Source: Embleya hyalina (GTDB taxonomy: Bacteria; Actinomycetota; Actinomycetes; Streptomycetales; Streptomycetaceae). From it: DNA of 64,000 bases. Shown piece by piece: positions 6,801-54,719 of the stretch (positions within the stretch are counted from its first letter, which is position 1; each line of letters opens with the position of its first letter). The notes beneath the pieces are model-generated. The model had not been told where the DNA came from, searched no databases, and saw only the letters and a list, made by a program, of their open reading frames with translations. The position numbers were made by a program, and so were the translations under genes. The stretch spans positions 405,084-469,083 of the forward strand of contig NZ_BIFH01000013.1 of NCBI RefSeq assembly GCF_003967355.1, written 5' to 3'.

Positions 6801-6939
6801 ACGTCCGGCGCAACCACGCGACGCAGTCGGGTACTTCGTCGAGGTCGGGCCACCGCGTGGGGATCTCGCCCAGCGGTGTCAGGGCGGCCCGGAGCAGGGC
6901 GACCCCGGTGCTGCGGTAGAGCTGCGTCCCGTCCGACAC
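3862..6939 (-). CDS. full-length LanB-type lantibiotic dehydratase
   Basis: 1025 residues. The N-terminal ~720 are the LanB glutamylation domain (conserved RPTPFGLFAGV near residues 110-120). The C-terminal ~270, from about EWVYARIHTHPERF, match the SpaB_C/thiopeptide-type elimination domain, with DHLRLYLHTP and RYGAGAAMAAAERVF. Class I LanBs use glutamyl-tRNA to glutamylate Ser/Thr of a precursor and then eliminate glutamate to give dehydroamino acids; the fused form does both steps. Start at GTG 6939 because GGAGG lies 5 nt upstream; a longer frame to 7008 has none. No precursor, LanC cyclase, protease or transporter is adjacent. The gene stands alone between the ADP-ribosyltransferase gene (27-bp convergent gap) and a divergent VOC gene. 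It may work in trans on a distant precursor or be a relic. Confidence 0.9.
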   Translation of the reverse strand: MSDGTQLYRSTGVALLRAALTPLGEIPTRWPDLDEVPDCVAWLRRTWARPGLAAGITAAGPTLARRVETLIAGADDGDPKRVRRATASVVRYVLRGAGRPTPFGLFAGVAPTTVGSRTRVDWGTEHRPLARVDTEWLADIVERLEACPELLARVDVVFGRPVTERGDRLERANGPLRVSVRRTRAVLAAREAAASPVRFGTLVDTMAAAFPRVDRARIEALSAGLVRRGFLISSLRAPMTVTDPLARLVDELGRVRAEEVPAVAPLVAGLRLVAEDVRRHNEASLADRAVLRADLGTRMRTLSDAGRTVLGVDTRLDCRVDVPHAVAWEMERAASALLRTTRRPAGESAWRAYHAAFLDRYGVGAAVPLADVVCPDTGLGYPAGYPTATEVAPVETATPRDDRLLAMAWRAMADGVGVGEVVLTDSDVRTLADGTGFDERRIPPHLELSARVHARSARALDRGEFTLVVAPAGAAGTLTSRFTPTVGGSGLEDVYRTLPPATEGALRVQLSTPPVYAHAQNVGRVPRYLPHVLSLGEHRGSDDRHIAVDVRDLAVSATSTGLHLVDRSRHVVVEPQVFHALALHRQVSPLARFLARLPRALGAQWYEFDWGPRARLLPWLPRVRHGRSVLSPARWRVAEDDLPAASVDGNSWRLALDAWRTRWKCPDTVELRDAADRTLRLSLDEPAHAELLRVHLAGRGHAVVHEAAPAAEFGWIGGHVHEIALPLVARRPPAPSPLLGPPDLAAGPVCGAAPGSASAEWVYARIHTHPERFDEIIAHRLPELAATLDRDRARWFVRHRGGHERDHLRLYLHTPDPHDRAAVMAAVERWTRELCAGRVVSHLVLDTYRPEVGRYGAGAAMAAAERVFAADSRAVAAWLVHAATIDLAPVAWAALSMVDIACAFHGDPGEGMRRLAARPIAAAPGVERAIADTVAARITVDGVDPAGLPAELTAARAARAHALAGYRESLPAEADVDGILDALLRLHHNRALGIDPTGERTCRRLARRAALAFRARPVAPRADRA

Positions 6940-7058
6940 ACGATCCTCCGGTCGTTCGATCCGCCGCGTCGCGCACACTCCGACCCGGCAGGTGAGCCGA
7001 AACACCACTGATCGGTTACTGCCTACCCGGGAGTTCGGCGCGAGGATGGGGAAGAATC

Positions 7059-40330: not shown

Positions 40331-40549
40331 ACGTCTCCTCGGGAGGGGGGAAGGGGTGTGGAACCGGAGGACGGGCACCGCCGCAGGGTCCGAACCAACC
40401 ACCGTCGAGCGGGACGTTCTCGTACAGCTCCGGTCGGACGGCCCCAAGGTAGGGGACGGTTCCGCTCCGGGGGTAATCACATCTGCCGATAGCATCACAA
40501 GAGCCGCACACGGTGCGGCCGTTCGGGGGTGGTGGCGAGGAGGGGAGTG

Positions 40550-41341
40550 GTGGTCGTGGCGCTGCGGTACTCGACGAACGGCGAGCGGTACGACTTTCCG
40601 CCGTTCGCCGGCCCGCCGCCGGTGCGCTACGTCCTGGCGTCGAGCCCGCGCTGCGGCAGCAACATGCTCGCCCGTGCGCTGTGGCATACCGGGGTGGCCG
40701 GTTTTCCCGAGGACTACCTTGCCGACACCTACGTCCTCGACTACTTCGAACGCTGGGGATTCGACGCCGACGACCCGGACGGGCTGCCCGCGGGCCATGT
40801 CCGCGCCCTGATGCGGTGCCGGACCAGTCCCAACGGCGTCTTCGGCATCAAGGTGCACGCCGGCCATCTGGCCGCCTTGGAAGTCGACCCGCACGAACTG
40901 CTGGGCGCGCCGCGGTACATCCACATGGTGCGCCGGGACCGGCTGCGGCAGGCGATCTCGTACACCGTGGCCGAGCAGACCGGTGTCTGGATCGTCGACG
41001 GAACCCACCTGCCGACGGGGCGGGCGAGCTCGACCCCGCGCTACGACCACGACGGCATCCGTCGGCACCTGCGCCTGCTCGACCGCGACGCGGCGACCTG
41101 GGCGCGGTACTTCGACCGCCACGGGATCACACCCCACGTCGTCGTGTACGAGGAGCTGCTCGCGAGGTACGAGGACGGCGTGCGGGGGTGTCTGGCGTTT
41201 CTCGGCGTCGAGGCGCCCGAGCGGATTCCCGCGCCCGGCATCGCGCGTCAGGCCGACGAGGCGACGAGTCGGTGGGTGGCGCGCTTCCTCGACGAGGCCG
41301 CTCCCTCGGAGCGCAACTCGCTTTTGTCCGGCGGCTGTTGA
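40550..41341 (+). CDS. Stf0-like PAPS-dependent sulfotransferase
   Basis: 263 residues. The 5'-phosphosulfate loop is LASSPRCGSNMLARAL (about residues 28-43), and VRRDRLRQAISYTVAEQTGV matches the 3'-phosphate binding helix of Stf0 family members, first known from trehalose sulfation in mycobacteria. Start at GTG 40550: AGGAGG lies 6 nt upstream; GTGs at 40529, 40532 and 40547 are less well spaced. It stands directly before the RiPP operon, and its TGA overlaps the -35 box of that operon's promoter. It might sulfate the RiPP product or be unrelated. Confidence 0.85.
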   Translation: MVVALRYSTNGERYDFPPFAGPPPVRYVLASSPRCGSNMLARALWHTGVAGFPEDYLADTYVLDYFERWGFDADDPDGLPAGHVRALMRCRTSPNGVFGIKVHAGHLAALEVDPHELLGAPRYIHMVRRDRLRQAISYTVAEQTGVWIVDGTHLPTGRASSTPRYDHDGIRRHLRLLDRDAATWARYFDRHGITPHVVVYEELLARYEDGVRGCLAFLGVEAPERIPAPGIARQADEATSRWVARFLDEAAPSERNSLLSGGC

Positions 41342-41403: not shown

Positions 41404-41568
41404 ATGAGTGTTGCACCGCCCGAGGTGACGGTAGAAACCGCCGCCGACGAGGAGTTCGCCGAGCTCGACGACCTCGAAGTGATCGAGACCAGCGAGTTGA
41501 AGGTCGGTGGGGCGTACCACTCCTACACCTACATCGCGGCGAACAACGAGGAAGACGTCTCCGTCTGA
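41404..41568 (+). CDS. RiPP precursor peptide
   Basis: 54 residues, ATG 41404, with GGGGAGGG 4-5 nt upstream. The first ~34 residues are acidic and helix-prone (VETAADEEFAELDDLEVIE), typical of a leader recognised by a maturase. A Gly-Gly pair at 35-36 is followed by the presumed core AYHSYTYIAANNEEDVSV (37-54), with Tyr38, Tyr41, Tyr43, His39 and two Asn. Next genes: B12-type radical SAM enzyme, MNIO oxygenase, second B12-type radical SAM enzyme. No cysteines, so it is not a lanthipeptide or sactipeptide. GG cleavage is inferred; no dedicated protease is adjacent. The residues modified are unknown. Confidence 0.82.
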   Translation: MSVAPPEVTVETAADEEFAELDDLEVIETSELKVGGAYHSYTYIAANNEEDVSV

Positions 41569-41593
41569 GACCCCGGACTGCCGAGGTGGGAAT

Positions 41594-43594
41594 GTGCCGT
41601 CCGAACGGGCAGGCGGCGGTGATCGGGTCGACGTCCTCCTGATCTTTCCGCCGCAGACCGAGGCCAGGTTCTTCCCGTACCTGAGCCTGCCCTACCTGAC
41701 CGGCCACCTGCGGCGCCGGGGTCGGCGCGTGCACCAGGCCGATCTCAACATCGGCCTGGTGCACGACGTGCTGCGGCACCCGCAGACGCTGACCGCCGCG
41801 GTCGCGGCCCGCGGCGGTACCGGTCTGGACGGCTGGTATCGGCGGGCCATGGCCGACGCCGTGACGCGGCACGCGGGCGAGATCCGGGCCCGGGTCATCG
41901 AGCGACAGGCCGAAGAGCCCCACACGCCCGCCGCGTTCGACGCGCTTCGGCTCGCGCGCAACGCCGTCGAGCTGCTTGTCGGCGACACGCTCCTCACCCG
42001 TACCTGGCGCGACCTCGGGCAACTCGACGCCGCCGTGCGCGAGGCCGCCGAGGCGCCGCCCGCCGGGTCCGGCGTCGCGGTCGAGCGGCTCCACCGGCAC
42101 GTCGTGGACCTGCTGACCCGATGCCGGCCCCGCGTGGTCGGCCTGTCCGTGGCGTTCTTCAGCCAATTGGCACCGGCGCTGCTGATCGCCGCCTGGGTGC
42201 GGCGGCTGCGACCCGGGACACACGTCTGCCTCGGTGGCCAGCAGGTGATGCTTCGTCACGAGGACTTGGCGGGGCTCACCGGCGTGCGCCGCACCGTCGA
42301 CGCCCTGTGCCACACGGCGGGCGAGGAGCCGCTGGAACGCTGGCTCGACGCACTGGACGGGAGCGCCGCACGGGCCGACGTACCCGGCATGACCTGGCTC
42401 TCGCCCGACGGCGCCGCGCGGCACTCGACGCGCCCGGTACGACTGCGGTTTCGCGATCTCGGCCCACCGGACTTCGCCGGCCTGCCGATCCACGCCTACC
42501 TCTCGGAGACCACACAACTGGCCATCGTGTCCTGCGTGGGCTGCTACTGGGGCCGGTGCGCCTTCTGCTCCTACGGCAATCGTTCCCTGCCGCGCGGCGG
42601 CTACCAACAGGGCACCCCCGCGCAACTCGCCGACGCCGTCGAGTCGGTGGTCCGGGACACGGGAGCCGAACTCGTGGCGATCGCCGACGAGAACACCAAC
42701 CTCCGACTGATCGCCCGCGCGATGCGGCTGGCCCGGGCCCGCGGCGTCAGGGTGCGCTTCGACGTCCGCGCCCGCCTCGAACACAGCCTGCTGGAGCCGG
42801 AGTTCTGTCGCGAACTGGCCGACCTCGGCTGCGCGCAGATCGCCATCGGCTACGAGGGCACCTCACAGCGCCTGCTCGACCTGCTGGATCGGGGCGTGCG
42901 CGCCGCCGACTACCAGCGCATCGTCGACAACCTCGCCGACGCGGGCATCACCATGCGGCTGTCCGTGATGGGTCACGTCCTCGACGAGACCCCTGCCGAG
43001 TTCGAGGAATCCCTGCGGTTCCTGACGGACAACCAGGACCGGATCGGCATCGACGCGCTGGAACTGCTGATCGCCGAGCCCGGCAGTCGACTCGCCCGAC
43101 ACCCCGAGCGTTTCGGCCTGGCGCTGGACACCTCCGGGCCGCTCACGGGCAATCCGGAACTCAACTATCTCGGCGGCCGGGTCGGATATCCGATGGCGAT
43201 CGGCGGCGGCCCCGCCCGCGCCGAGGCACTGGACCGACTGGAACGTGTCTTTCGTACGGTCACCCCGGGCCGGGCCGGCCGGCTGTCGCCCCCGAGCAGC
43301 ACACCGGGGACCGGCCCGCGCGAGGCCGAACTGGTCGGGCCGCACCCGTGGGTGTGCGTCGTCCCCGCCGAACTCGACGGCGTCCACGACCGGATCGCCA
43401 TCGCCGATCTGGTTCGGGAACGCTTCTACGCGCTGCCGCGCCGCGACGTCGCACAACGTGCCGACGGCCTGCTCGCGGCGCGCACCGCACGCGGCCGGCT
43501 GCTCCTCGGCCGGCTGGTCGGCGCGCTGGCCGGCCGACCCCATCCGGGCACCACCACCGAGGCGGACGTCGAGTACGCCGGGAGGCCGTCGTGA
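41594..43594 (+). CDS. B12-binding radical SAM RiPP maturase (CX4CX2C)
   Basis: 666 residues. The N-terminal ~230 form a cobalamin-binding-like domain (VDVLLIFPPQTEARFFPYLS, then VGLSVAFFSQLAPALLIAAW and HVCLGGQQV). The radical SAM core follows, with cluster ligands Cys317, Cys322 and Cys325 (CYWGRCAFC); the x4 spacing differs from the canonical CX3CX2C. Further core motifs are ADENTNLRL and IAIGYEGTSQRLLDLLDRGV. Such enzymes methylate unactivated carbons or make other radical modifications in RiPPs. Start at GTG 41594, with GAGG 7 nt upstream, 25 bp after the precursor stop. The stop overlaps the next GTG by 4 bp. Confidence 0.88.
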   Translation: MPSERAGGGDRVDVLLIFPPQTEARFFPYLSLPYLTGHLRRRGRRVHQADLNIGLVHDVLRHPQTLTAAVAARGGTGLDGWYRRAMADAVTRHAGEIRARVIERQAEEPHTPAAFDALRLARNAVELLVGDTLLTRTWRDLGQLDAAVREAAEAPPAGSGVAVERLHRHVVDLLTRCRPRVVGLSVAFFSQLAPALLIAAWVRRLRPGTHVCLGGQQVMLRHEDLAGLTGVRRTVDALCHTAGEEPLERWLDALDGSAARADVPGMTWLSPDGAARHSTRPVRLRFRDLGPPDFAGLPIHAYLSETTQLAIVSCVGCYWGRCAFCSYGNRSLPRGGYQQGTPAQLADAVESVVRDTGAELVAIADENTNLRLIARAMRLARARGVRVRFDVRARLEHSLLEPEFCRELADLGCAQIAIGYEGTSQRLLDLLDRGVRAADYQRIVDNLADAGITMRLSVMGHVLDETPAEFEESLRFLTDNQDRIGIDALELLIAEPGSRLARHPERFGLALDTSGPLTGNPELNYLGGRVGYPMAIGGGPARAEALDRLERVFRTVTPGRAGRLSPPSSTPGTGPREAELVGPHPWVCVVPAELDGVHDRIAIADLVRERFYALPRRDVAQRADGLLAARTARGRLLLGRLVGALAGRPHPGTTTEADVEYAGRPS

Positions 43595-45357
43595 CCCAGA
43601 CATCAGCCACCACGACCAGGCTGGGCCTGGGCCTGGTCATGGACATGCCGTGGAGCGGAGGCACCCTGGGCAATCGCGGCATCGGCTTCGTCGAGACGCC
43701 CGACGGCGGCGACATCTCGCCCCGCGTGCGCGCGTTCTTCCGGCGCCACGGCCACGATTTCGCCTACGCGTGCCCCTCGTTCCAGCCGCGCTCGCGGGCC
43801 GCCGTACGGATGGCCGACTACGCCCCCGCCTACGACCGCTTCTTCGCCGAACCACCCGCCGGGACCCGCCGCGCGCTGCACCAGACCGAGCTGAACATGG
43901 GCTCACCCGAGCGCTACGACCGCGGCCCCACCATCGAGTTCACCAACGAACTCACCGCCCGCCACGACCTGTCCTGGATCGTCGAAGACCTCGGGATCTG
44001 GAGCCTGCGCGGCTGCCCGCTGCCGTATCCGCTGCCGCCGCCGCTGACCGAGCGCGGCCTGGAGATCGCCACCGCCAACACGGCGGACACCGCGCGTCGC
44101 CTGGTGGCGCCGCTGCACGTGGAGTTCCCCGGCTTCACCGAGGGCGGGTCCTTCCACCTCGGCGGCCTCGACGCGTTCGAGTACTTCGCCAGGTTGGCCG
44201 ACGACGCCGACGTGTGGGTCACCCTCGACGTCGGCCATCTGCTCAGCTATCAGTGGCTGCGCGGTCGCACCGGCCGCGACATGCTCGACGGGATCGAGGC
44301 CCTCCCGCTCGACCGTTGCCGCGAACTGCACCTGTCGGGCTGCCAGATCGTCGGCGGCAAGTTCCGCGACCTGCACCACGGCGTGCTCCTGGACGAGCAG
44401 TTACAACTCACCGAATACCTGCTGCCGCGCTGCCCGAACCTGCTCGGGGTCAGCTACGAGGACCCGATGTACCGCGAGGACGGCCGGCTGGTGGAGCGGT
44501 CCCGGCCCAACTTCGAGCGGCTGCGCGACCTGGCCGACAGGTGGCGGCAGGGCGACGACCGCCTCGTCGCCACCTCCGCGCCACCGCGCGAGGTGACGCC
44601 CGCCCCGCCGGCGACCGGCGCGGGCCTCGCCGGCGGGCAACTCGCCGACCTGCTCATGCGTCTTCTGCTCGACCGCGACCTGCGCGCCCGCCTGGCCGAC
44701 GAGGGCGCCGCCGAAGTGGCGGCGAACCCGGGCGAGCTGGAGTGTCTGGAGACCGTCGAGCTCGACGAACTCGACGCCGCCGCACGCAGGTTCCGATCCC
44801 GGATCTGGCGGCTCGGCCGTGACGGCGGGCTCGCCGGCTCGTTCCCACGCACCCTGCGCACGCTCCGCGAGTCCGGCCGCGGCGACGCGGACCTGCTCGA
44901 CGGGTTCCTGACCTCGACCCACTTCGGCGCCTTCCGGCTGGTCCCCCACCTCGGCCCCGGCCTGTCGGTGGAGGAGTCCTTCGCGCGGTTCCTGCTCGAC
45001 CTGCCGGAGGCGACCGCCACGACCGTGCGCGAGACCGTGGACCACGAGCTGCTGCTCTCCCTGTTCACCGCGCTCTGCCACGAGCGGCCGCTGTCGTTCC
45101 TGATCGGGGTCGAGGGTGTCGTGCGCACCGACCACGGCCACGCCGCGCTGCGCCGGTATACCCGGGCGGCCATCGCGGGCTGGGGCCAGGGCGTGGCCGG
45201 CCCGCCGGAAGAGACCGCGCTCTACGCGTACTTCGCCACCCCCGCCGGACTCGCCCACGGCCCGGTCTCCGCGCGGGTGGCCGCGGCGTTCGAGACCACG
45301 CCGACACCCGCGGGCGACGCCGCCCGCGCCGCGCTGAGCCGGCGCGGGCGCTGGTGA
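43591..45357 (+). CDS. MNIO/DUF692 oxygenase with long C-terminal extension
   Basis: 588 residues. Residues ~10-310 are a TIM-barrel DUF692 domain, now called multinuclear non-heme iron-dependent oxidative enzymes (MNIO, like MbnB and TglH): LGLGLVMDMPW, IEFTNELTARHDLSWIVEDL, VTLDVGHLLSYQ and LHLSGCQIVGG hold the expected acidic and His ligands. MNIOs oxidise precursor residues, for example Cys to oxazolone or Asp to aminopyruvate. The ~270-residue C-terminal part, starting near PAPPATGAG, is helical (LMRLLLDRDLRARLADEGAA, FGAFRLVPHLGPGLSVEESF) and resembles nothing I recognise; MNIOs often need a separate partner, and this may be a fused one. GTG start overlaps the previous stop. Confidence 0.82.
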   Translation: MTQTSATTTRLGLGLVMDMPWSGGTLGNRGIGFVETPDGGDISPRVRAFFRRHGHDFAYACPSFQPRSRAAVRMADYAPAYDRFFAEPPAGTRRALHQTELNMGSPERYDRGPTIEFTNELTARHDLSWIVEDLGIWSLRGCPLPYPLPPPLTERGLEIATANTADTARRLVAPLHVEFPGFTEGGSFHLGGLDAFEYFARLADDADVWVTLDVGHLLSYQWLRGRTGRDMLDGIEALPLDRCRELHLSGCQIVGGKFRDLHHGVLLDEQLQLTEYLLPRCPNLLGVSYEDPMYREDGRLVERSRPNFERLRDLADRWRQGDDRLVATSAPPREVTPAPPATGAGLAGGQLADLLMRLLLDRDLRARLADEGAAEVAANPGELECLETVELDELDAAARRFRSRIWRLGRDGGLAGSFPRTLRTLRESGRGDADLLDGFLTSTHFGAFRLVPHLGPGLSVEESFARFLLDLPEATATTVRETVDHELLLSLFTALCHERPLSFLIGVEGVVRTDHGHAALRRYTRAAIAGWGQGVAGPPEETALYAYFATPAGLAHGPVSARVAAAFETTPTPAGDAARAALSRRGRW

Positions 45358-47279
45358 GCGACATGCGCGTGGTACTCGTGGACATGCCGTGGTCGTCGAT
45401 CGACATGCCGTCGTTGGCGCTCGGCATCCTGCGACGCCGCGTCCTCGACGTCTTCCCCGACGCCCACGTCGAGGTCGTGCACGCCAATCTCGACTACGTC
45501 GACTGGCTGGTCGCGCGCACCGGTTTCACCGCCGAGGAGTACGAGTTCTGCGCCAACTCCTACTTCTCCGGGCTCAGCGAATGGATCTTCTCGGCCGCGC
45601 TGAACGATCGCCCGCACTGGCAGGTACCGGAATTCACCGCCCGCCTGGCCGGCCGAGTGCCCGACGGCATGACCGCGCGGGCGCTGGAACTGCACGAACT
45701 CGCCCCGTTGTTCGTCCGCGAGACCGCCGCCCGGATCGTCGCCGAGGCGCCGGACGTGGTCGGCTTCACCACCACGTTCGCGCAGAACGCCGCGACGTTG
45801 GCGGCGGCGCGTACCGTCAAGGAGATGGCGCCGCACACGCTCACCGTGTTCGGCGGCGCGAACTGCGACGGCCCGCAGGGCGCCGCGCTGCACCGCAACT
45901 TCCCGTACGTGGACGCCGTCGTGCGCGGCGAGGGCGAGGCCGCGTTCCCGCACCTGCTCGCCGCGACCGCGGACGGAGAGCGGGACGAGAAGGCACTGGC
46001 CGGTATCGCGGGTCTGTGCTGGCGCACGTCGGAAGGCGGGTGTGTGGTGAACCCGATGGAGGCCGGGCCGCTGCCCCCCGGGGCGCTCGTCGCGCCCGAC
46101 TACGGCGACTACTTCGAACGGCACGCGAGGTCGACCGCGGGCTCCTGGGTCGAACCCCGGCTCGTCGTGGAGAGTTCGCGCGGCTGCTGGTGGGGCGCGA
46201 AGCACCACTGCACGTTCTGCGGGCTCAACGGCTCGTTCATGGAGTTCCGCAGCAAGGACCCGGGCCGGTTCGTCGCCGAACTCCTCGCCCTGGTCGAACG
46301 ACACCGCGTTCTCGACGTGTGGGTCACCGACAACATCATCGACATGGCCTACCTCGGCTCGATGGCGCCGCGCCTCGCCGAGTCCGGATACGACCTGCGG
46401 ATCGGCTACGAGATCAAGTCGAACCTGCGTCGGGACCAACTCGAAACCCTGTACGCGGCCGGGATCAGCCATGTGCAGCCGGGGATCGAGAACCTGAGCA
46501 GCAAGGTGCTGCGGCTGATGGACAAGGGCGTGACGGCCTGTCGCAACGTCCGACTGCTCCGCGACGCGGAGACGGTCGGTACCGAGGTGAGCTGGAACCA
46601 CCTCTACGGTTTTCCCGGCGAGACCGACGGGGACTACGACGACGTGATCGACCAACTCCCGGCGCTGCACCACCTCATGCCGCCCGCCGGGGCCACCCGG
46701 GTCAAGGTCGAGCGCTTCAGTCCGTACTTCGACCGGCCCGAACTGGGTTTCGGCCCACCCCGACCGGCCGCGCACTACCGGCACATCTACGACCTGCCCG
46801 AGGCGGAACTCGCCGATCTCGTGTACATCTTCGATGTGCCCCGGCGCGGCATCTCGGCGGCGTGCCTGGACCGGCTGCGGCCGGCCATCGCGGACTGGAT
46901 CGCCGCGCGTCCGCGCAGCCGGCTCACCCACCACGACCTCGGGGACCACATCGTCCTGATCGACTCCCGACCCCGCTTCGACTGGCACCTGCTCGAACTC
47001 GTCGACCCGGTCGAGACGACGGTGTTCCGGCTGCTCGACACCCCGCACAGCCCCGCGGCGCTGCTGCGCAAGACCGCCGCACGTCACGACGGCGTCACCG
47101 CGGCGACGATCGAGGACCTGCTCACCCGATGGCGCTCGCTCGGCGTGGTCTTCGCCGAAGGCGGCGAGGTCGTCCAGGTCGCGCCGGCCGCGCGCAACCC
47201 GGCGCCGACGCGGCCGCGACGGCCGACGACGCGACGGCACGAGCCGCTCGTCCCCACCCCGGCCGCCGATGAGCGCTGA
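45354..47279 (+). CDS. B12-binding radical SAM RiPP maturase, rSAM_ocin_1 type (CX7CX2C)
   Basis: 641 residues. N-terminal B12-binding-like domain (LVDMPWSSIDMPSLALGILR, ADVVGFTTTFAQN-like region, TVFGGANCDGPQG). Radical SAM ligands are Cys278, Cys286 and Cys289 in ESSRGCWWGAKHHCTFCGLN: the CX7CX2C spacing and the sequence around it are hallmarks of the family annotated as RiPP maturation radical SAM protein 1, whose members are mostly C-methyltransferases. Residues ~560-615 (VFRLLDTPHSPAALLRKTA, WRSLGVVF) look like a winged-helix RRE/PqqD-type leader-binding domain. GTG overlaps the MNIO stop (GTGA); its own stop overlaps the next ATG. Confidence 0.88.
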   Translation: MSDMRVVLVDMPWSSIDMPSLALGILRRRVLDVFPDAHVEVVHANLDYVDWLVARTGFTAEEYEFCANSYFSGLSEWIFSAALNDRPHWQVPEFTARLAGRVPDGMTARALELHELAPLFVRETAARIVAEAPDVVGFTTTFAQNAATLAAARTVKEMAPHTLTVFGGANCDGPQGAALHRNFPYVDAVVRGEGEAAFPHLLAATADGERDEKALAGIAGLCWRTSEGGCVVNPMEAGPLPPGALVAPDYGDYFERHARSTAGSWVEPRLVVESSRGCWWGAKHHCTFCGLNGSFMEFRSKDPGRFVAELLALVERHRVLDVWVTDNIIDMAYLGSMAPRLAESGYDLRIGYEIKSNLRRDQLETLYAAGISHVQPGIENLSSKVLRLMDKGVTACRNVRLLRDAETVGTEVSWNHLYGFPGETDGDYDDVIDQLPALHHLMPPAGATRVKVERFSPYFDRPELGFGPPRPAAHYRHIYDLPEAELADLVYIFDVPRRGISAACLDRLRPAIADWIAARPRSRLTHHDLGDHIVLIDSRPRFDWHLLELVDPVETTVFRLLDTPHSPAALLRKTAARHDGVTAATIEDLLTRWRSLGVVFAEGGEVVQVAPAARNPAPTRPRRPTTRRHEPLVPTPAADER

Positions 47280-47919
47280 CCTCCCGCCGGTACGGCTGGC
47301 CCTGTGGCGCGACCGCGACCCGGAGGCCATGCGGATACCGGGGATGTACCTCGGCGAGGCGGACGTCGCCGGCGACCCCCTGGACGAGGTCGCGGGGCTT
47401 GCCGCGGGCGGTGCGTGCCTGGCTCGTCTGCCCGCCGCGATCGACCTGTCCACCGGCGGGGTCGAGGCGGCCGGCGCGGCGGCCGTGGCGGGACTCGTGG
47501 TCGTCCGCGAACTCACCGCGCACGGTATCGCCGTCGACTGGACGCTCCGGCCGGCCGCCGGGCCCTGGGACTGGCGCCCGCTCGGCCACCTGCACCCGCC
47601 GACCACCGTGATCGACGGTGCCGGGCTCGCCGCCGCCTGGCGGGACGACTTCCGCCCCGCGAAGTTCGGCTACCGCCACGGCCCCGGCTTCATCGAGGTC
47701 CGCGACCACCGCGCCGACCCGTTCCGCCGCCTCGTCATCCGCAACCCCCGCTACGAGCAGGTCATCGAGCCGCTGCTGCGCGGTGTGGCCACGACGGACC
47801 TGACCGAGGCGGTGACCGCGCGCTACCACGAGGCGGGCCTCCTGCACCGGGTGGGCGGGTACGTGTGGTGGACCCCGTACCGCGTCCGCCACAGCCCACA
47901 CGGCACGGGATCGCCGTGA
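47269..47919 (+). CDS. small RiPP-cluster partner protein (DUF5825-like)
   Basis: 216 residues. Its ATG at 47269 lies inside the end of the radical SAM gene (11-bp overlap), so translation is coupled. The sequence (VRLALWRDRDPEAMRIPGMY, LPAAIDLSTGG, FIEVRDHRADPFRRLVIRNP, YVWWTPYR) has no enzyme motif I know; from memory it is like the DUF5825 proteins that accompany these radical SAM maturases. The C-terminal half may bind the leader peptide. Last gene of the operon. Confidence 0.7.
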   Translation: MSADLPPVRLALWRDRDPEAMRIPGMYLGEADVAGDPLDEVAGLAAGGACLARLPAAIDLSTGGVEAAGAAAVAGLVVVRELTAHGIAVDWTLRPAAGPWDWRPLGHLHPPTTVIDGAGLAAAWRDDFRPAKFGYRHGPGFIEVRDHRADPFRRLVIRNPRYEQVIEPLLRGVATTDLTEAVTARYHEAGLLHRVGGYVWWTPYRVRHSPHGTGSP

Positions 47920-47992: not shown

Positions 47993-48634
47993 ATGGTGTC
48001 CCAGGATCGTCTCCTCGCGTTCGCGGCCATGTCGGCCCTGCTCATCGTGATACCCGGCCCGAGCGTGCTGTTCGTGGTGGGGCGAGCCCTGGCGCACGGG
48101 CGGCGCGCCGCGCTGACGACCGTGGCCGGGAACACCGTCGGGGCGTACACCCTGGTGGTGGCCGTGGCACTGGGTGTGGGCGGGATCGTGGAGCGCTCGG
48201 TGCCGCTGTTCACCACACTGAAACTGGTCGGCGCCGCGTACCTGATGTATCTGGGCGTGCAGGCGTTTCGCGGGCGCAAGGCGCTGCCCGCGGCGTTCAC
48301 CGCGGACGGGCCGACGGCGACCGGGATTCCGAGGACCTTTTGGGACGGGTTCCTGGTGGGTGTCGCCAACCCCAAGACGATCGTGTTCTTCGCCGCGGTG
48401 CTCCCGCAGTTCGTCGACCGCGACCGGGGCCACGTGGCGGCGCAGATGTTGCTGCTCGGCCTGGTGTTCAACGTGATCGCGGTGGCGTGCGACAGCGCGT
48501 GGGGCCTGGCGGCGGCGACCGCGCGCGGCTGGTTCGTCGGCTCGCCGCGACGACTGGCCGCGGTCGGCGGCGTGGGCGGGCTCGCGATGATCGGCCTCGG
48601 CGTGACGGTCGCGGCGACCGGCCGCAAGGACTGA
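47993..48634 (+). CDS. LysE/RhtB-family amino-acid exporter
   Basis: 213 residues with about six membrane segments: LAFAAMSALLIVIPGPSVLF with the family PGP motif, LVVAVALGVGGIVER, TLKLVGAAYLMYLGVQAF, FLVGVANPKTIVFFAAVLPQ and LLGLVFNVIAVACDSAWG. The family exports amino acids or related small molecules. Start at ATG 47993 with a leaderless promoter, so it is not simply the end of the RiPP operon, 73 bp upstream, but might export its degraded product (speculative). Confidence 0.9.
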   Translation: MVSQDRLLAFAAMSALLIVIPGPSVLFVVGRALAHGRRAALTTVAGNTVGAYTLVVAVALGVGGIVERSVPLFTTLKLVGAAYLMYLGVQAFRGRKALPAAFTADGPTATGIPRTFWDGFLVGVANPKTIVFFAAVLPQFVDRDRGHVAAQMLLLGLVFNVIAVACDSAWGLAAATARGWFVGSPRRLAAVGGVGGLAMIGLGVTVAATGRKD

Positions 48635-48660: not shown

Positions 48661-49971
48661 TCAGTCCGAGTCGAGGGTGTGCGGGGCGAACACGGCGGCC
48701 ATCGCGCTGCCGAGGGCTCCGTTGAGGACATGGTTTCGGCCCATCCGTGACCCGTAGCCGATCACCCGCCCACGCAGGACCGCGACCTTCAGGTCGCGCA
48801 TGTATCGCCCCCCGTCGGTGTCGACGCACGAGGGCGCGACCCGTTCCTGAACGAGCCACCCCCGCCGCGCCGGGTCGCGCAGCAGACCCGCCCACGTGTG
48901 CGGGTCCGTGTCGACTCCCATGTGCACGGCTTGGCCGCGGAATCCGTAGGGGGCCTTGACGACCAGGTCGACGCGACCGGCGATCGCCTCGGCCACGGAG
49001 ACGCCGTCGCCGAGTTTGCGGCTCCAGGGCACGAGGGCGTGCAACGCCGTGTGCTGTGCGGGGGTGAACAGGTGCCGGAACCGGGGATCGGACATGACGG
49101 CCAGGCACAATTTGTTCTCCGCCACCCAACGCTCGGCCAACACATTGGGCGCGATCAGGTCGCCGGCGGTCAACCGTGCGCACAACCCGTCCCACCGCTC
49201 GACCTCGGCGGCGTCGGCCGGGATGTGCTTGAGGTAGGCCAGCGCGAACTCCGACAGGGCGGCGTCGTCGTCGGCGTCCACCGGGATCAACGCACGGCCA
49301 CGCGCGGTGAACTGGGCCCGCATCACCTCGACTTCGAACCGCGACTGGCGCCGACCGCGAACCAGGGCGATGCGCCCGGCCGCGGCGTCCGACACGCCGC
49401 GCTCACGACCGTGGGTGACCAGCCAGTCGGCGAACCAGGTCGGTTGTTCCATCGGGGTGTCGGGCACGCTCCACTCGGCCAGGACGGCCCCCGCCGGCGA
49501 CCGGCGCCACATCCGGTTGACCGAGCCTGCCACCATGACACCGCCCGGGCTGCTCGGGTTGAACTCCAACACCCGCACGGAACCCAGATTCGCGCCGACC
49601 AGGTCCGGCCGGCAGAAGTCCACCAGGGGCCGTTCCCGGCGATCGTGCCGCAGGATCCACCGGTGCAACACCGCCGGGACTCCCAGGAAGTCCCGCAGCG
49701 CCGGGTCGTCGGGGTAACACTCGACCACACGCTCCAGGCACCGCACCACCGTCAGGACCCGGCGGCGCAGGATCCGCTCCGCTGTGCGCTCCAACACCGA
49801 GACCGCGGGCAGCAGGGCTCCCGCTTTCAACGCCCGCTCGGTTCCCAGGCCCGCGTCCACCCCCTCGAACGCGGCCGCCACCGATTTTGCGCAAGGTCCG
49901 GAACAGCCGGGCGCGCCGGGTATGGCCATCAGATCACGATCGGGATCCCATAGGGGCAAGGCATCATTCAT
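48661..49971 (-). CDS. circularly permuted ATP-grasp-like protein
   Basis: 436 residues. Segments typical of the permuted ATP-grasp fold: VRVLEFNPSSPGGVMVAGSV, RIALVRGRRQSRFEVE, VDLVVKAPYGFRGQAVHMGV (nucleotide-binding Lys) and GWLVQERVAPS followed by MRDLKVAVLRGRVIGYGSRM. These occur in glutathionylspermidine-synthase-like ligases that join a carboxylate to an amine with ATP. Start at ATG 49971, with TAATGT 6 nt upstream (leaderless). Divergent from the PLP decarboxylase gene by 170 bp, which suggests that one could make the amine the other uses (inference). Confidence 0.75.
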   Translation of the reverse strand: MNDALPLWDPDRDLMAIPGAPGCSGPCAKSVAAAFEGVDAGLGTERALKAGALLPAVSVLERTAERILRRRVLTVVRCLERVVECYPDDPALRDFLGVPAVLHRWILRHDRRERPLVDFCRPDLVGANLGSVRVLEFNPSSPGGVMVAGSVNRMWRRSPAGAVLAEWSVPDTPMEQPTWFADWLVTHGRERGVSDAAAGRIALVRGRRQSRFEVEVMRAQFTARGRALIPVDADDDAALSEFALAYLKHIPADAAEVERWDGLCARLTAGDLIAPNVLAERWVAENKLCLAVMSDPRFRHLFTPAQHTALHALVPWSRKLGDGVSVAEAIAGRVDLVVKAPYGFRGQAVHMGVDTDPHTWAGLLRDPARRGWLVQERVAPSCVDTDGGRYMRDLKVAVLRGRVIGYGSRMGRNHVLNGALGSAMAAVFAPHTLDSD

Positions 49972-50141
49972 TCCGGGACATTAACACTCCGGTCGTTACG
50001 CTACGACGGTTTTCCGAAAAGCCGACCGCAGGTGTGGTCGACGCCGATCGGCGCTCCCCTTTTCGAGGCTCGACATGTGCAGGATCGGTGTCCTACGGTG
50101 AAAACCGTCCTGGTATCCGACGGGAAATTCGGAGGTGGGTC

Positions 50142-51374
50142 GTGATCGAAAGTCGGCTGAAAGCCGCGGCCGAGCGTATCGCCCGGGAAATACCGACACC
50201 TTTTTACGTGGTCGACCCGGGCGGGGTCGAGCGGGATTTCACCGCGATGGACAAGGCATGGCGCGAGTGGTTTCCGCGGTTCACCCTTGCGTATTCCTAC
50301 AAGAGCAATCCACTGACGGCGTTCACACGGTTGTTGTGCGCACTGGGGGCGACGGCCGAAGTGGTCTCCGGTCCGGAACTCGAAACCGCCCTGAAGGACG
50401 GGTTCCCGCCCGATCGCATCCTCTTCGACGGCCCGGTGAAACATGCCGCGGAATTGACCCGGGCCCTGGCTCTCGGGGTCGGCGTACAGATCGACTCGGC
50501 GGCGGAGGTCGAAGACGTCGCCGCCGCGATTTCGGAGGGCGGTCCGCGACCGCGCGTGTGTTTACGCCTGGCCATCGGGACCGATTCGGGGGAGTGGTCG
50601 CGATTCGGATTGATGCCCGACGAGGTGCCGCGCGCCCGGCGGATTCTCGCCGATGCGGGAGTGCGGGTGCGGGGCGTGCATCTGGGCGTGGGAACCCTGG
50701 TCCGGGGCCCGCGGACGTACCGCGCCGCGATACGCCTGTGGCGCGAGACGTTGCCGGAATTGGCCCACGACGCCCCGGAGCCCTTCGTCCTGAATATCGG
50801 CGGCGGGTTTCCGCCGCGCGGCGACACGGCCGATCCGGCCGCGCCCTGGGCGGAGTTCGCGGCCGAGGTCGCCGAGGAGTGCGGGCTGCTCGGTCTGCGG
50901 CCCCGGGACGTGCACCTGGTCGTCGAGCCGGGGCGCAGCCTGGCGGAGGAACACGGCGTGCTCGTCGCCCGGGTGGCCGTCCGCAAACGCCGCGCCGAGG
51001 GCCCCGACCTGCTGGTGCTGGACGCCGGCACCAATCTCGCCCGGACGGTGAAGTCCCGCAGCCACCCGATCGAGTTCGTCCCTTCGGACCCCGACGACGC
51101 GGCCGACGCGGGCGGCACGCGGGACCCGATCGGCGCCGGCTCCGCCCGGGAGCCGTACGCCGTGTACGGCAACAACTGCTACGAGGGCGACGTCTTCGCT
51201 CGAGTGGTCGACGGACCCTCGTCGTTGCGCCCGGGGCAGCTGGTCCTGGTGGGCTCCGTCGGTGCCTACGACATGCCGTTCGCCCACGTGTGGGTCCGGC
51301 CGCGTCCCCCGGTGTACGCGCCGGCCGGCACCGGCCACGTCCTGGTGCGCGAGCCGGGGCGGGCCATCCGCTGA
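50142..51374 (+). CDS. PLP-dependent fold-III decarboxylase (ornithine/diaminopimelate type)
   Basis: 410 residues. Residue Lys54 in LAYSYKSNPLTAF is the PLP Schiff-base Lys; FVLNIGGGFPP holds the Gly-rich phosphate loop, VVEPGRSLAEEHG is the family's EPGR segment, and YGNNCYEGDVFARV contains the CxxxD-like active-site stretch (NNCYEGD). Enzymes of this group decarboxylate diaminopimelate, ornithine, arginine or carboxynorspermidine. Start at GTG 50142, with GGAGG 6 nt upstream. It is convergent with the NRPS-like gene across a hairpin. The substrate is not set by the sequence. Confidence 0.88.
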   Translation: MIESRLKAAAERIAREIPTPFYVVDPGGVERDFTAMDKAWREWFPRFTLAYSYKSNPLTAFTRLLCALGATAEVVSGPELETALKDGFPPDRILFDGPVKHAAELTRALALGVGVQIDSAAEVEDVAAAISEGGPRPRVCLRLAIGTDSGEWSRFGLMPDEVPRARRILADAGVRVRGVHLGVGTLVRGPRTYRAAIRLWRETLPELAHDAPEPFVLNIGGGFPPRGDTADPAAPWAEFAAEVAEECGLLGLRPRDVHLVVEPGRSLAEEHGVLVARVAVRKRRAEGPDLLVLDAGTNLARTVKSRSHPIEFVPSDPDDAADAGGTRDPIGAGSAREPYAVYGNNCYEGDVFARVVDGPSSLRPGQLVLVGSVGAYDMPFAHVWVRPRPPVYAPAGTGHVLVREPGRAIR

Positions 51375-51380
51375 CATGTT

Positions 51381-51420
51381 CGAGCCCCACCGACCGGTCC
51401 CGGGCGGTGGGTGGGGCTCG
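51381..51420. terminator. bidirectional hairpin terminator
   Basis: An 11-bp perfect stem (51381-51391 and 51410-51420), lengthened inward by imperfect pairing, sits between the convergent decarboxylase and NRPS-like genes. Confidence 0.7.
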
Positions 51421-51451
51421 CGTCGGTGCCCCCGGCGGGTCGTCGGTCGCG

Positions 51452-54400
51452 TCACGAGCGCGTCGACGTCCGGTGGTAGTGGACGTAGCGGTCGAAGACG
51501 TTCGCGTCGATGACGGGCGGTCGCAGCCCGATCCGCCGGGCCAGCCGTTCGGCGCGGGCGACGGAGAACAGCGCCGTGCCGTCCTGGAAGACGTCGGCCA
51601 GCCGATTCCGGTGCGGTTGCGGATCCCCGTCGGGCGCCGGCAGTACGGCCAGTGCCCCCGCCAGGGTGCGGTCCCCGGGCGCGGCGAGCGAGGCGTCGTG
51701 CAGGGCCGCCCAGAACGTCTCGTATCCGACCGGCTCCAGCCCGAAGGCCGAGCCGAACGCGCCCAGCAGCCCGCCGAGTTGCACGGGCGTGGGATGCAGG
51801 AGGTGGAACCAGCCGCGTTCGTGGTGCGCCACGGCGGCGGCAAGCAGCGCGCCGACGGTGTCCAGGGGCGTGTAGTCCAGGAGCAGCGGATTCGTGGGGT
51901 GCGCGCCCACCCGCAGGCAGGCCCGGATGAACAGGTCCGTGCGGGAGCCGTTGTTCGGGACGCCCGTGTCGGTCGCGGGCATCACCTCGCCGAGCCGGTG
52001 CACCGCCGTCGGCAGGCCGCGCTCCGCCGCCTGGAGGACGAGTTGTTCGGCCACCCACTTGGACCGCCCGTACCCGGTCGTGGCCGCGTCGACGGCGGGC
52101 CACGGTGCCTCGGGCGCCCGGGACCCGGGGCCGTCGGGGACCGGCGCCCGGCCGCGCGCGGCGAGGGTGGACACGAAGTGCAGCACCTTGGGTCGGCACC
52201 GCGTGGCGAACCGCAGGATCTCCACGGTGCCCTCGACGTTCGCCGGGCGGTGCGCCGCGTATCCGCGCACGAGGTTGACCAGGGCGCCGGCGTGCACGAT
52301 CGTATCGACGCGCTCGGCGAGGCGGCGCGTGTCCGCGTCGTCCAGCCCCAGGCCCGGTGCGGACAGGTCGCCGACCACGATGCGCAGGCGTTCGGCGTGC
52401 TCGTCGCGCCAGAGGCCGTAGTGGCGCAGATTGTCCGCCACGCGCGCCCGGGCGGATTCCGCGTCGTCCGCGCGGACCAGGCAATACGCGGTGACCCCGG
52501 GCAGGCGAAGCACGTCGTACAGCAGTTGTGCGCCGACGAAGCCGGTCACGCCGGTGAGCAGTACGTGCTCGACGCGCGCTGCCGCGGGCGTGTACGGGAG
52601 TCGGATGTCCGGGGGCAGCACCGGGTCGTGGTCGAAGTGCTCGGCGGCATCCCGGCGGGTCCGCCGTGCGGCGATCGGGGCGCCGTTTCCGTTTCCGTTG
52701 CCGTTCGGCCCGGTTCGACCGCGCAGGGCCGCGAGTTGGTCCGTCACGGTGGGGGCCGCGACCACGTCGCGTACGGAGAAGTCGATCCGGAAGCGGGCCG
52801 CGATGGCCAGGGCGAGGCGCTGGGCGCTGAGCGAGTCGCCGCCGCTGTCGAAGAAGTCCTTGTCGGCGTGTACGACGGGCTCCGGGAGCACCTCGGCCCA
52901 CAGGTCGAGCAGTGCCCGCCGCGCGAGTTCCGCGGTCGGCGGGGGGCGGGTCGCGCCGCCGGCGGTGCCCCGCGGGACCGGGGCGGCGGGGCCGCCGGCC
53001 TGTACCGGGCGGTCGAGCAGTCGTTTCAGGGCGCCGCGATCGGCCTTTCCGTTGCCGTTGAGCGGCATGTTCTCCAGGATCACGAAGCGTTTCGGGGTCA
53101 ACTCGGCCGGCAGCGTCGCGCGCGCGTGGCGGATCAGGTCGTCGGTCGAGGTGTCGCCGCGGACGGTGACGAAGGCGGCCAGGTAGGTGGAGCCGCCGTG
53201 CTCGTGCGCCACGACCTTCGCCTCGCGGACCCGGGGGTGTGTGGCGATCGCCTGCTCGACCTCGCCCGATTCGACCCGCACCCCGCCGACCTTGAACTGC
53301 TGGTCGCGTCGGCCGCCGAAGAAGAGCACGCCGTCCGCGTCGTGGTGACCGAGGTCGCCGGTGCGGTACATGCGCGGCCCGGGCAGTTCGGCGAACGGGT
53401 TCGCCACGAACGCCGCGTCGGTGCGCCGAGGATCACCCAGATACCCGAGGCCCAGGCACTCGCCGCCGATGTGGATCTCGCCGATCTCGCCCGGCGCGAC
53501 CGGCCGGTTGTGTTCGTCCAGGACGATCGCCCACGTGTTGTCGATGGGGCGGCCGATCGGCAGCGGACTGCGGGGGTCGCGGGTCACGTCGTGGAAGACC
53601 GACCCGATCGCGGCCTCGGTGGGACCGTACGTGTTGATCAGCGCGACGTCGGGCAACATCTCGTGGAACAGCCGGACGGCGCGTGCGTTGATCTCCTCGC
53701 CGCCGATCAGCAGCCGTCGCAGCGAGCCGAGTCGTGGTATCAACTCCGGCTGTGAGTGCAGCAGTTCGACCAGGCTGTTGAAGATCGTCGGGACGAAGTC
53801 GGTCATCGTGATCCGGTGCCGTGCGATCACGTCGACGGTGGCGGCGAGGTCGAGCATGCCCCGGGGCTCCGGGATGACGACGCTGCCGCCGTGGGTGAGC
53901 GGCCACAGGAGTTGCCACAGCGACGAGTCGAAGGTGTGCCGACTGTTCTGGAGCACCCGTTCCGGGTCGTCGGCCACGAACCGGTGGGTCATGTAGAGGA
54001 ATCGATTGAGCAGGCCGCGGTGCGTGTTGAGGGCGCACTTGGGTACGCCGGTGGATCCGGACGTGTAGAAGCCGTACGCGAGGTCGTCGGGGCGGGCCGG
54101 CGGGCCGAAGCGGTCGGCGGTCGCGGGGCCGAGCCGGTCGAGGTCGACCGTGACGGTCACCGGAGCATCGCGGTCGTCGCCCCACGTCGGCCCGGTGTCC
54201 CGGCGCGTACCGGCTCCGACGCCCGGCGCCGTACCGGTCGCGAGGTCTCGCGTCGTGTCCGGGCCGGCGACGGACAGCACGACCTTCGGGTCGCACGCCC
54301 GGATCATGCCGCGCAGCCGCTGCTCGGGCCAGGTCGCGTCCAGGGGCACGAACGCCGCGCCCGTTTTGAGCACGGCCAGCATGGCCACCGGCAGGCCGAG

Positions 54401-54649
54401 GCCGTTGCGGGCGGCGAGCGGTACCAGGTCGCCGGGTCCGGTGCCGTGTTCGTGCAGATCCCGGGCCAGTGCGCTCGCCATCCGGGTCATGCGCTCGTAG
54501 TCGAGGACCCGGCCGGCGCATTCGACGGCCGGGGCGTGCGGGGCTCGCGACGCCCGGGCCTCGACGAGGTCCAGGACGGTCCGGTCGGGCGGGAGGGAGA
54601 CGGCTCGGCCCAGGAATTGTGCAACCTGTGTCTCGCGCAACCTCTGCAT
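51452..54649 (-). CDS. stand-alone NRPS module: adenylation-thiolation-reductase
   Basis: 1065 residues in three domains. Adenylation (about 15-510): FYTSGSTGVPKCALNTHRG (A3), NTYGPTEAAI (A5), YRTGDLGHH (A7) and NGNGKADR with the catalytic Lys (A10). Thiolation (about 545-620): FFDSGGDSLSAQRLAL with the phosphopantetheine Ser. Thioester reductase (about 675-1065): VLLTGVTGFVGAQLL (NAD(P)H loop), YGRSKWVAEQLV (Tyr/Lys). It would load one amino or other acid and release it as an aldehyde or alcohol, without a condensation domain. Start at ATG 54649; a TTG at 54694 is less likely. Similar to carboxylic-acid reductase logic. No phosphopantetheinyl transferase is in the window. Confidence 0.9.
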   Translation of the reverse strand: MQRLRETQVAQFLGRAVSLPPDRTVLDLVEARASRAPHAPAVECAGRVLDYERMTRMASALARDLHEHGTGPGDLVPLAARNGLGLPVAMLAVLKTGAAFVPLDATWPEQRLRGMIRACDPKVVLSVAGPDTTRDLATGTAPGVGAGTRRDTGPTWGDDRDAPVTVTVDLDRLGPATADRFGPPARPDDLAYGFYTSGSTGVPKCALNTHRGLLNRFLYMTHRFVADDPERVLQNSRHTFDSSLWQLLWPLTHGGSVVIPEPRGMLDLAATVDVIARHRITMTDFVPTIFNSLVELLHSQPELIPRLGSLRRLLIGGEEINARAVRLFHEMLPDVALINTYGPTEAAIGSVFHDVTRDPRSPLPIGRPIDNTWAIVLDEHNRPVAPGEIGEIHIGGECLGLGYLGDPRRTDAAFVANPFAELPGPRMYRTGDLGHHDADGVLFFGGRRDQQFKVGGVRVESGEVEQAIATHPRVREAKVVAHEHGGSTYLAAFVTVRGDTSTDDLIRHARATLPAELTPKRFVILENMPLNGNGKADRGALKRLLDRPVQAGGPAAPVPRGTAGGATRPPPTAELARRALLDLWAEVLPEPVVHADKDFFDSGGDSLSAQRLALAIAARFRIDFSVRDVVAAPTVTDQLAALRGRTGPNGNGNGNGAPIAARRTRRDAAEHFDHDPVLPPDIRLPYTPAAARVEHVLLTGVTGFVGAQLLYDVLRLPGVTAYCLVRADDAESARARVADNLRHYGLWRDEHAERLRIVVGDLSAPGLGLDDADTRRLAERVDTIVHAGALVNLVRGYAAHRPANVEGTVEILRFATRCRPKVLHFVSTLAARGRAPVPDGPGSRAPEAPWPAVDAATTGYGRSKWVAEQLVLQAAERGLPTAVHRLGEVMPATDTGVPNNGSRTDLFIRACLRVGAHPTNPLLLDYTPLDTVGALLAAAVAHHERGWFHLLHPTPVQLGGLLGAFGSAFGLEPVGYETFWAALHDASLAAPGDRTLAGALAVLPAPDGDPQPHRNRLADVFQDGTALFSVARAERLARRIGLRPPVIDANVFDRYVHYHRTSTRS

Positions 54650-54719
54650 GTCGATGAAGTCCCCTGTCGCATGGGTGCGAACAACTCGTGACAAGCCGCG
54701 GCCGCGACGCCGAAAAGAT

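Follow-up and report, generated by a model that had tools for sequence, protein, structure and literature searches.

Biphenomycins are antibiotics with potent activity against Gram-positive bacteria (PMC12707348), and two recent studies outline how such peptides are assembled. In the pbs cluster, the multinuclear non-heme iron-dependent oxidative enzyme (MNIO) PbsC and its partner PbsD hydroxylate both aromatic residues of an FRF motif, an arginase makes ornithine, and the B12-dependent radical S-adenosylmethionine enzyme (B12-rSAM) PbsB joins the two rings; the arginase-like and JmjC genes serve the Arg of FRF (PMC12257519, JACS 2025). The same logic has been described for biphenomycin itself (PMC12707348, Angew 2025), and the clusters studied in both papers hold a TldD-type protease. 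In addition, PMC12257519 delineates a branch of biphenomycin-like clusters with YHx1Yx2Y precursors (x1 = S/T/A, x2 = T/V/A), which are devoid of arginase and carry a second B12-rSAM together with a DUF5825 protein. Here, a gene cluster for a ribosomally synthesized and post-translationally modified peptide (RiPP) is analysed that lies in a window of 64,000 nucleotides from Embleya hyalina (the whole stretch of DNA considered; contig NZ_BIFH01000013.1, positions 405,084 to 469,083). The cluster very probably belongs to the biphenomycin family, within its YHxYxY branch, and would make a small ring-shaped peptide. The predicted product is hydroxylated, biaryl-bridged, C-methylated and perhaps sulfated.

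All genes of the cluster are located on the forward strand. The precursor gene (41404..41568) encodes 54 residues with the core region Y38-H39-S40-Y41-T42-Y43-I44-A45-A46, and is followed by rSAM1 (41594..43594), a gene for an MNIO protein of 588 residues (43591-45357), rSAM2 (45354..47279), and a gene for a DUF5825 protein (47269..47919), the proposed partner of rSAM2. An initial annotation of this DNA had placed a precursor and four downstream genes here, and all five open reading frames are present; the overlap of 4–11 bp that it gave for each junction applies to the four enzyme genes (4, 4 and 11 bp) but not to the precursor, which ends 25 bp before rSAM1. The precursor is preceded by GGGGAGGG and has a strong-looking ribosome-binding site. 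The CX4CX2C motif of rSAM1 and the CX7CX2C motif of rSAM2 can both be read in the sequence as annotated, and the annotation was right in describing a RiPP operon that combines a precursor with an MNIO and two B12-rSAMs. Overlooked, in turn, were the kinship of rSAM1 with crosslinking enzymes, a partner domain fused to the MNIO, and a gene of the Stf0 sulfotransferase family just upstream (40529..41341; true start perhaps internal, e.g. at 40553), which ends 62 bp before the precursor.

Gene content, orthology, conservation and co-occurrence were read from the window and its relatives, which were defined as MNIO matches at E≤1e-40 (n = 14), with about 20 kb fetched around each. Within the window's genus the MNIO is found in two of four genomes, its own included. 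The order sample gave matches at E≤1e-10 in 12 of 391 genomes, namely the window, seven at E≤1e-40 and four weaker ones. When a second genus, assigned by inference as Streptomyces-like, was sampled, 10 of 392 genomes had a match at E≤1e-40, and six of these were new. A phylum sample returned 1/396, the window's own, and a sample of relatives of genome G435 returned 6/376, none new. The stretches around the four weaker matches (L107-L110) had no precursor match by tblastn and served as outgroups only.

The initial annotation had named a lack of conservation of the 54-residue frame beside these enzymes in other genomes as one finding that would refute its reading. This finding was not made: all 14 relatives encode a same-family peptide next to the enzymes or close by, in some of them with major facilitator superfamily (MFS) and arginase-like genes in between, and the precursor is therefore not a chance reading frame. 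Residues L21, L24, V26, L32 and H39 are invariant in a nine-row alignment and, by eye, in all 15 precursors, and A37 is replaced by Ser in L125. Judged from these peptides, FHAFRF and YHxYxY precursors are one family. Counts of synonymous and nonsynonymous codon changes did not yield a clear signal for the precursor; between the window and L099, for example, the last 40 codons differ by 2 and 3, respectively. A TglA-like carrier peptide was rejected as the identity of the precursor (14 bits, cut-off 45).

The 15 clusters are of two kinds. Seven of them (the window, L099, L100 and L122-L125) are of the YHxYxY kind, with the core YHSYTYIAA in two, YHTYTYIAA in four and YHAYVYIAA in one, and the other eight (L101-L106, L126 and L127) display AFHAFRF. 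Within the stretches fetched, rSAM2 and the DUF5825 gene occur in 7/7 YHxYxY versus 0/8 FHAFRF clusters, directly adjoining each other in all seven. Arginase-like and JmjC genes, searched with the L105 proteins as queries (L105 itself is among the eight), display the opposite pattern, with 8/8 FHAFRF versus 0/7 YHxYxY clusters, and neither the arginase-like protein nor the JmjC protein (ornithine hydroxylase) of L105 has a match in the 64-kb window. The tail I44-A45-A46 is present in all seven YHxYxY precursors and in none of the eight FHAFRF precursors. In midpoint-rooted trees the seven clusters fall into one group (100/99 for the MNIO domain, 99/99 for rSAM1), next to which stand L126 in the MNIO tree (93/91) and L126 with L101 in the rSAM1 tree (85/95). 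Because the seven form one clade, the seven-versus-eight contrasts are not independent of each other.

The MNIO domain of the window (43591..44556, boundary approximate) matches PF05114 with 44.5 bits (cut-off 25) over part of the protein. The nine metal ligands published for PbsC, compared via the published ligand list, occupy the same residue numbers in the window MNIO and are invariant in 15/15, consistent with the PbsC/BipE role of a Tyr41/Tyr43 ring hydroxylase that is proposed here; the earlier expectation that the peptide is oxidised by the MNIO is probably right. The C-terminal part of the protein (44557..45357, boundary approximate) aligns with the free-standing partners of the relatives at 28–60% identity (12 rows), those of FHAFRF clusters among them, and by this alignment is a fused-on, PbsD/BipF-like partner protein. 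Partner matches were obtained in 14 of the 15 clusters (undetected in L106). By match positions, MNIO and partner share one frame in the window and L099 only and the partner lies in another frame in 12 clusters; only the window and this congener of it therefore have the fusion.

In rSAM1, the Radical_SAM domain (PF04055) scores over its cut-off and the B12-binding domain (PF02310) remains below it (24 versus 32 bits), with the protein far below every NCBIfam cut-off. Each of the 15 clusters has an rSAM1 homologue in the corresponding position, and the CX4CX2C motif is kept in 15/15. By orthology, rSAM1 is proposed to be a ring-joining enzyme in the PbsB/BipD role, forming a Tyr41-Tyr43 biaryl crosslink, and not a methylase.

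rSAM2 falls into TIGR03975 ('RiPP maturation radical SAM C-methyltransferase') with 585 bits against a cut-off of 282 and carries Radical_SAM and B12-binding domains, the latter over cut-off. Among 80 relatives of rSAM2 the CX7CX2C motif was read in 78, with two sequences left unparsed by the fixed slice used, and it is therefore a family trait. The adjoining protein matches PF19142 (DUF5825) with 188 bits (cut-off 25). As cited in PMC12257519, a homologous B12-rSAM/DUF5825 pair C-methylates clavusporins, and a C-methylase acting on the peptide is likewise the likely function of rSAM2 with its DUF5825 partner. The C-methylation foreseen in the initial annotation thus probably holds for rSAM2 and does not extend to rSAM1, which groups with the ring-crosslinking enzymes. 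Clavusporin-type systems probably differ from the window in their precursors: in 19 of the 39 rSAM2-type loci inspected, the rSAM2 relative is preceded by a short peptide like MEIKKVVVREEE (e.g. L007:7921-8004). This peptide is a candidate precursor of another rSAM2 system, and the eight rows shown are all from Streptomyces. Around the 80 rSAM2 relatives an MNIO match was met only in L061 (28%), and no precursor was recognised beside the closest of them (L003-L005, Actinomadura).

The product of the upstream gene matches PF09037 with 123 bits (cut-off 22), and its PDB match is Stf0 (1tex, E 8.7e-13). In two congeners that lack the cluster and its MNIO (G001 and G003), homology of the left flank ends at window positions 40504 and 40525, shortly ahead of position 40529, where the Stf0 reading frame opens; only this flank could be placed in the two genomes, so that no clean empty site is available. 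In the window's genus the Stf0 gene is positioned upstream and co-directional, and in the Streptomyces-like genus downstream and convergent. Since the position differs between the genera, the association has been kept through a rearrangement. The Stf0 gene probably belongs to the cluster.

In four clusters with the core YHTYTY, the conserved block includes a LanB gene oriented divergently to the precursor (L100:2713-5811, and at the corresponding position in L122-L124); its domains were confirmed by scan in L100 and L122, and L123 and L124 match at 82–85%. The natural outline of the cluster in these genomes is LanB / precursor-rSAM1-MNIO-partner-rSAM2-DUF5825 / Stf0. In G612, the genome of L125, which has a YHAYVY core with Ala and Val where the other YHxYxY cores have Thr or Ser, no LanB match was obtained at E≤1e-20. 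This pattern fits a LanB that dehydrates Thr/Ser, in a tiny sample and with the window itself free of an adjacent LanB. A full-length LanB-type lantibiotic dehydratase is encoded at 3862-7008 (−) of the window, about 34 kb from the precursor, and congener G002 has a LanB about 30 kb from its cluster. Membership of the window LanB in the cluster is not supported, since it is 39% identical to the LanB of the Streptomyces-like clusters, a level that other LanBs (G002, G003, G403) reach as well.

Orthology and co-occurrence suggest the following pathway. The fused partner domain would bind the leader, and the MNIO would hydroxylate the rings of Tyr41 and Tyr43, at Cdelta1 by analogy with a YTY variant of PbsA3, which PbsCD hydroxylate at Cdelta1 and PbsB crosslinks at Cepsilon2 (PMC12257519). 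rSAM1 would link the two rings by a C–C bond, giving a Tyr-Thr-Tyr macrocycle; that fused MNIO and rSAM1 hydroxylate and close the ring of Tyr41-Thr42-Tyr43 is held with good confidence. rSAM2 and DUF5825 would probably C-methylate unactivated carbons, most likely in I44-A45-A46. The Stf0 enzyme may sulfate a hydroxyl, and a protease, of TldD type in the studied clusters and not found at this one, would release the peptide.

Several observations weigh against this reading. A YRY variant of PbsA3 was hydroxylated and not crosslinked by PbsB, and PbsB crosslinked YTY even without hydroxylation (PMC12257519); the place of the MNIO in the order of steps, and the need for it on Tyr, are therefore tentative. 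Over the principal stretch of the match, rSAM1 shares only 31–35% identity with five FHAFRF enzymes, and its proposed role is drawn from comparison with such relatives. An AlphaFold2 single-sequence model of the fused domain reached a pLDDT of 40 and was not used, leaving a RiPP recognition element (RRE) fold unsupported, and comparison of this domain with PDB profiles gave one doubtful match. No protease domain was detected in ten reading frames scanned at 40.5-54.7 kb. PF01523, the TldD-type protease family, is present in 15/15 genomes and at none of the clusters, the FHAFRF ones included; since a TldD-related protease is part of the published bip clusters yet none matched here, the model may miss such proteases. 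Moreover, a single gain together with a single loss might account for all seven-versus-eight contrasts, and no biochemical study of a native YHxYxY cluster was found in the literature searched.

Regarding the evolution of the cluster, it is tentatively proposed that the arginase/ornithine-hydroxylase module was exchanged for rSAM2, DUF5825 and Stf0, resulting in a sulfated, C-methylated, biaryl Tyr-Thr-Tyr macrocycle, with the LanB of four relatives possibly dehydrating Thr. If true, this would be a RiPP pathway with an Stf0-family enzyme acting on a crosslinked peptide. A product of the same family that is just hydroxylated, crosslinked and C-methylated, with Stf0 as a passenger, is a possibility of some weight, though short of probable. 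It agrees with the Stf0-free cluster of G612, which also counts against a sulfated product, with the different placement of the gene in the two genera, and with the nearest named NCBIfam model, a trehalose 2-sulfotransferase (85 bits against a cut-off of 400). Mere passage is harder to reconcile with the distribution of the gene. Close copies stand at 6/7 YHxYxY versus 0/8 FHAFRF clusters, and in 17 chosen genomes all six close copies are situated there; beyond these, E≤1e-10 was reached only by a paralogue in G403 (40%). In the family sample, Stf0 at E≤1e-20 occurs in 3 of 384 genomes, each with a YHxYxY cluster (the remaining 381 genomes were only partly screened for the cluster), and the block shared by L100, L123 and L124 begins at the end of the divergent LanB gene and stops no more than about 100 bp past the start of Stf0. 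Taken together, O-sulfation of the peptide by the Stf0 enzyme is evenly balanced between true and false. At L125:5482-6183 (+), where the other four Streptomyces-like clusters have Stf0, lies a class I methyltransferase gene convergent to DUF5825.

As to the site of methylation, the IAA tail, found only together with rSAM2 and DUF5825, is the best candidate and is somewhat favoured as the actual target. Methylation inside the ring, at residue 42 or a Tyr beta carbon, is unlikely; it would suit residue 42, which is Thr in 6/7 and Val in 1/7 YHxYxY precursors, both beta-branched, but leaves unexplained why I44-A45-A46 is invariant in seven of seven precursors and missing in the eight without rSAM2, albeit in a single clade. 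A wholly new RiPP class with unrelated chemistry is very improbable: the precursor has no Pfam match and a sole NCBIfam match at E 0.069, and the scores of the MNIO stay far short of the cut-offs set for named MNIO subfamilies, but the biphenomycin-type set includes all four of precursor, rSAM1, MNIO and partner, and the YHx1Yx2Y motif is already in print (PMC12257519). The initial annotation had expected a new product; with motif, second B12-rSAM and DUF5825 described in that paper as a biphenomycin-like branch, of which the window cluster is a member, the reading as a new product class falls.

Comparison with the described clusters, as far as the consulted portions of the two papers reach, places the YHx1Yx2Y branch closest, with the stg gene cluster of ATCC 700248 as an example. 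This branch shares with the window the YHxYxY precursor, MNIO and partner, B12-rSAM, the second B12-rSAM with DUF5825, and the absence of arginase, and the window differs by the MNIO-partner fusion and the adjoining Stf0 gene. With the pbs, bpm and bip clusters the window shares the precursor leader and core frame, MNIO, partner and B12-rSAM crosslinker; their own features are the FHAFRF core, arginase, JmjC hydroxylase, MFS transporter and TldD-type protease, and rSAM2/DUF5825 and Stf0 are not named for them in these portions. The branch itself is thus already published, and added here are the MNIO-partner fusion, the IAA-tail contrast, the Stf0 association and the LanB in four relatives. The main text of PMC12257519 does not contain the words sulfotransferase, fused or lanthi, and strain and genes may already figure in its supplement. 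Full-text searches with the motif strings and DUF5825 returned only this paper and its preprint, with no report of a native YHxYxY product, and searches on biphenomycin or MNIO with sulfotransferase, and on Stf0 with RiPP, found no paper. The cluster is compact and has MNIO and partner in one protein, and the mass changes to be expected from hydroxylation, ring closure, methylation and sulfation can be clearly predicted. It also offers a way to test why an MNIO would act on Tyr that can be crosslinked without it, a question raised in PMC12257519 for Phe versus Tyr.

Beyond the cluster, scans of 40.3-48.1 kb for consensus sigma-70 promoters and terminators gave nothing, and no RNA family exceeded its gathering score in 34-56 kb. 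Anti-phage defence was rejected as a function, with rSAM1, MNIO, rSAM2, DUF5825 and an ATP-grasp-like neighbour having no PADLOC match at E≤1e-3. A LysE-type gene (47993..48634, +; PF01810, 99 bits) starts 73 bp past the DUF5825 gene and has a match in L099, whereas the stretches of the remaining 13 relatives have none; it encodes a possible exporter of unsure membership. Positions 48661-54694 encode a protein with a very weak ATP-grasp-related match, a pyridoxal phosphate-dependent decarboxylase and a non-ribosomal peptide synthetase-like protein with adenylation, carrier and reductase domains, a set that is collinear with G002 to about 54.5 kb and may be a separate pathway. Elsewhere in the same genome, a second, canonical MNIO is encoded at G000:C24:9017-9793 (−), locus L001, which matches PF05114 with 268 bits.

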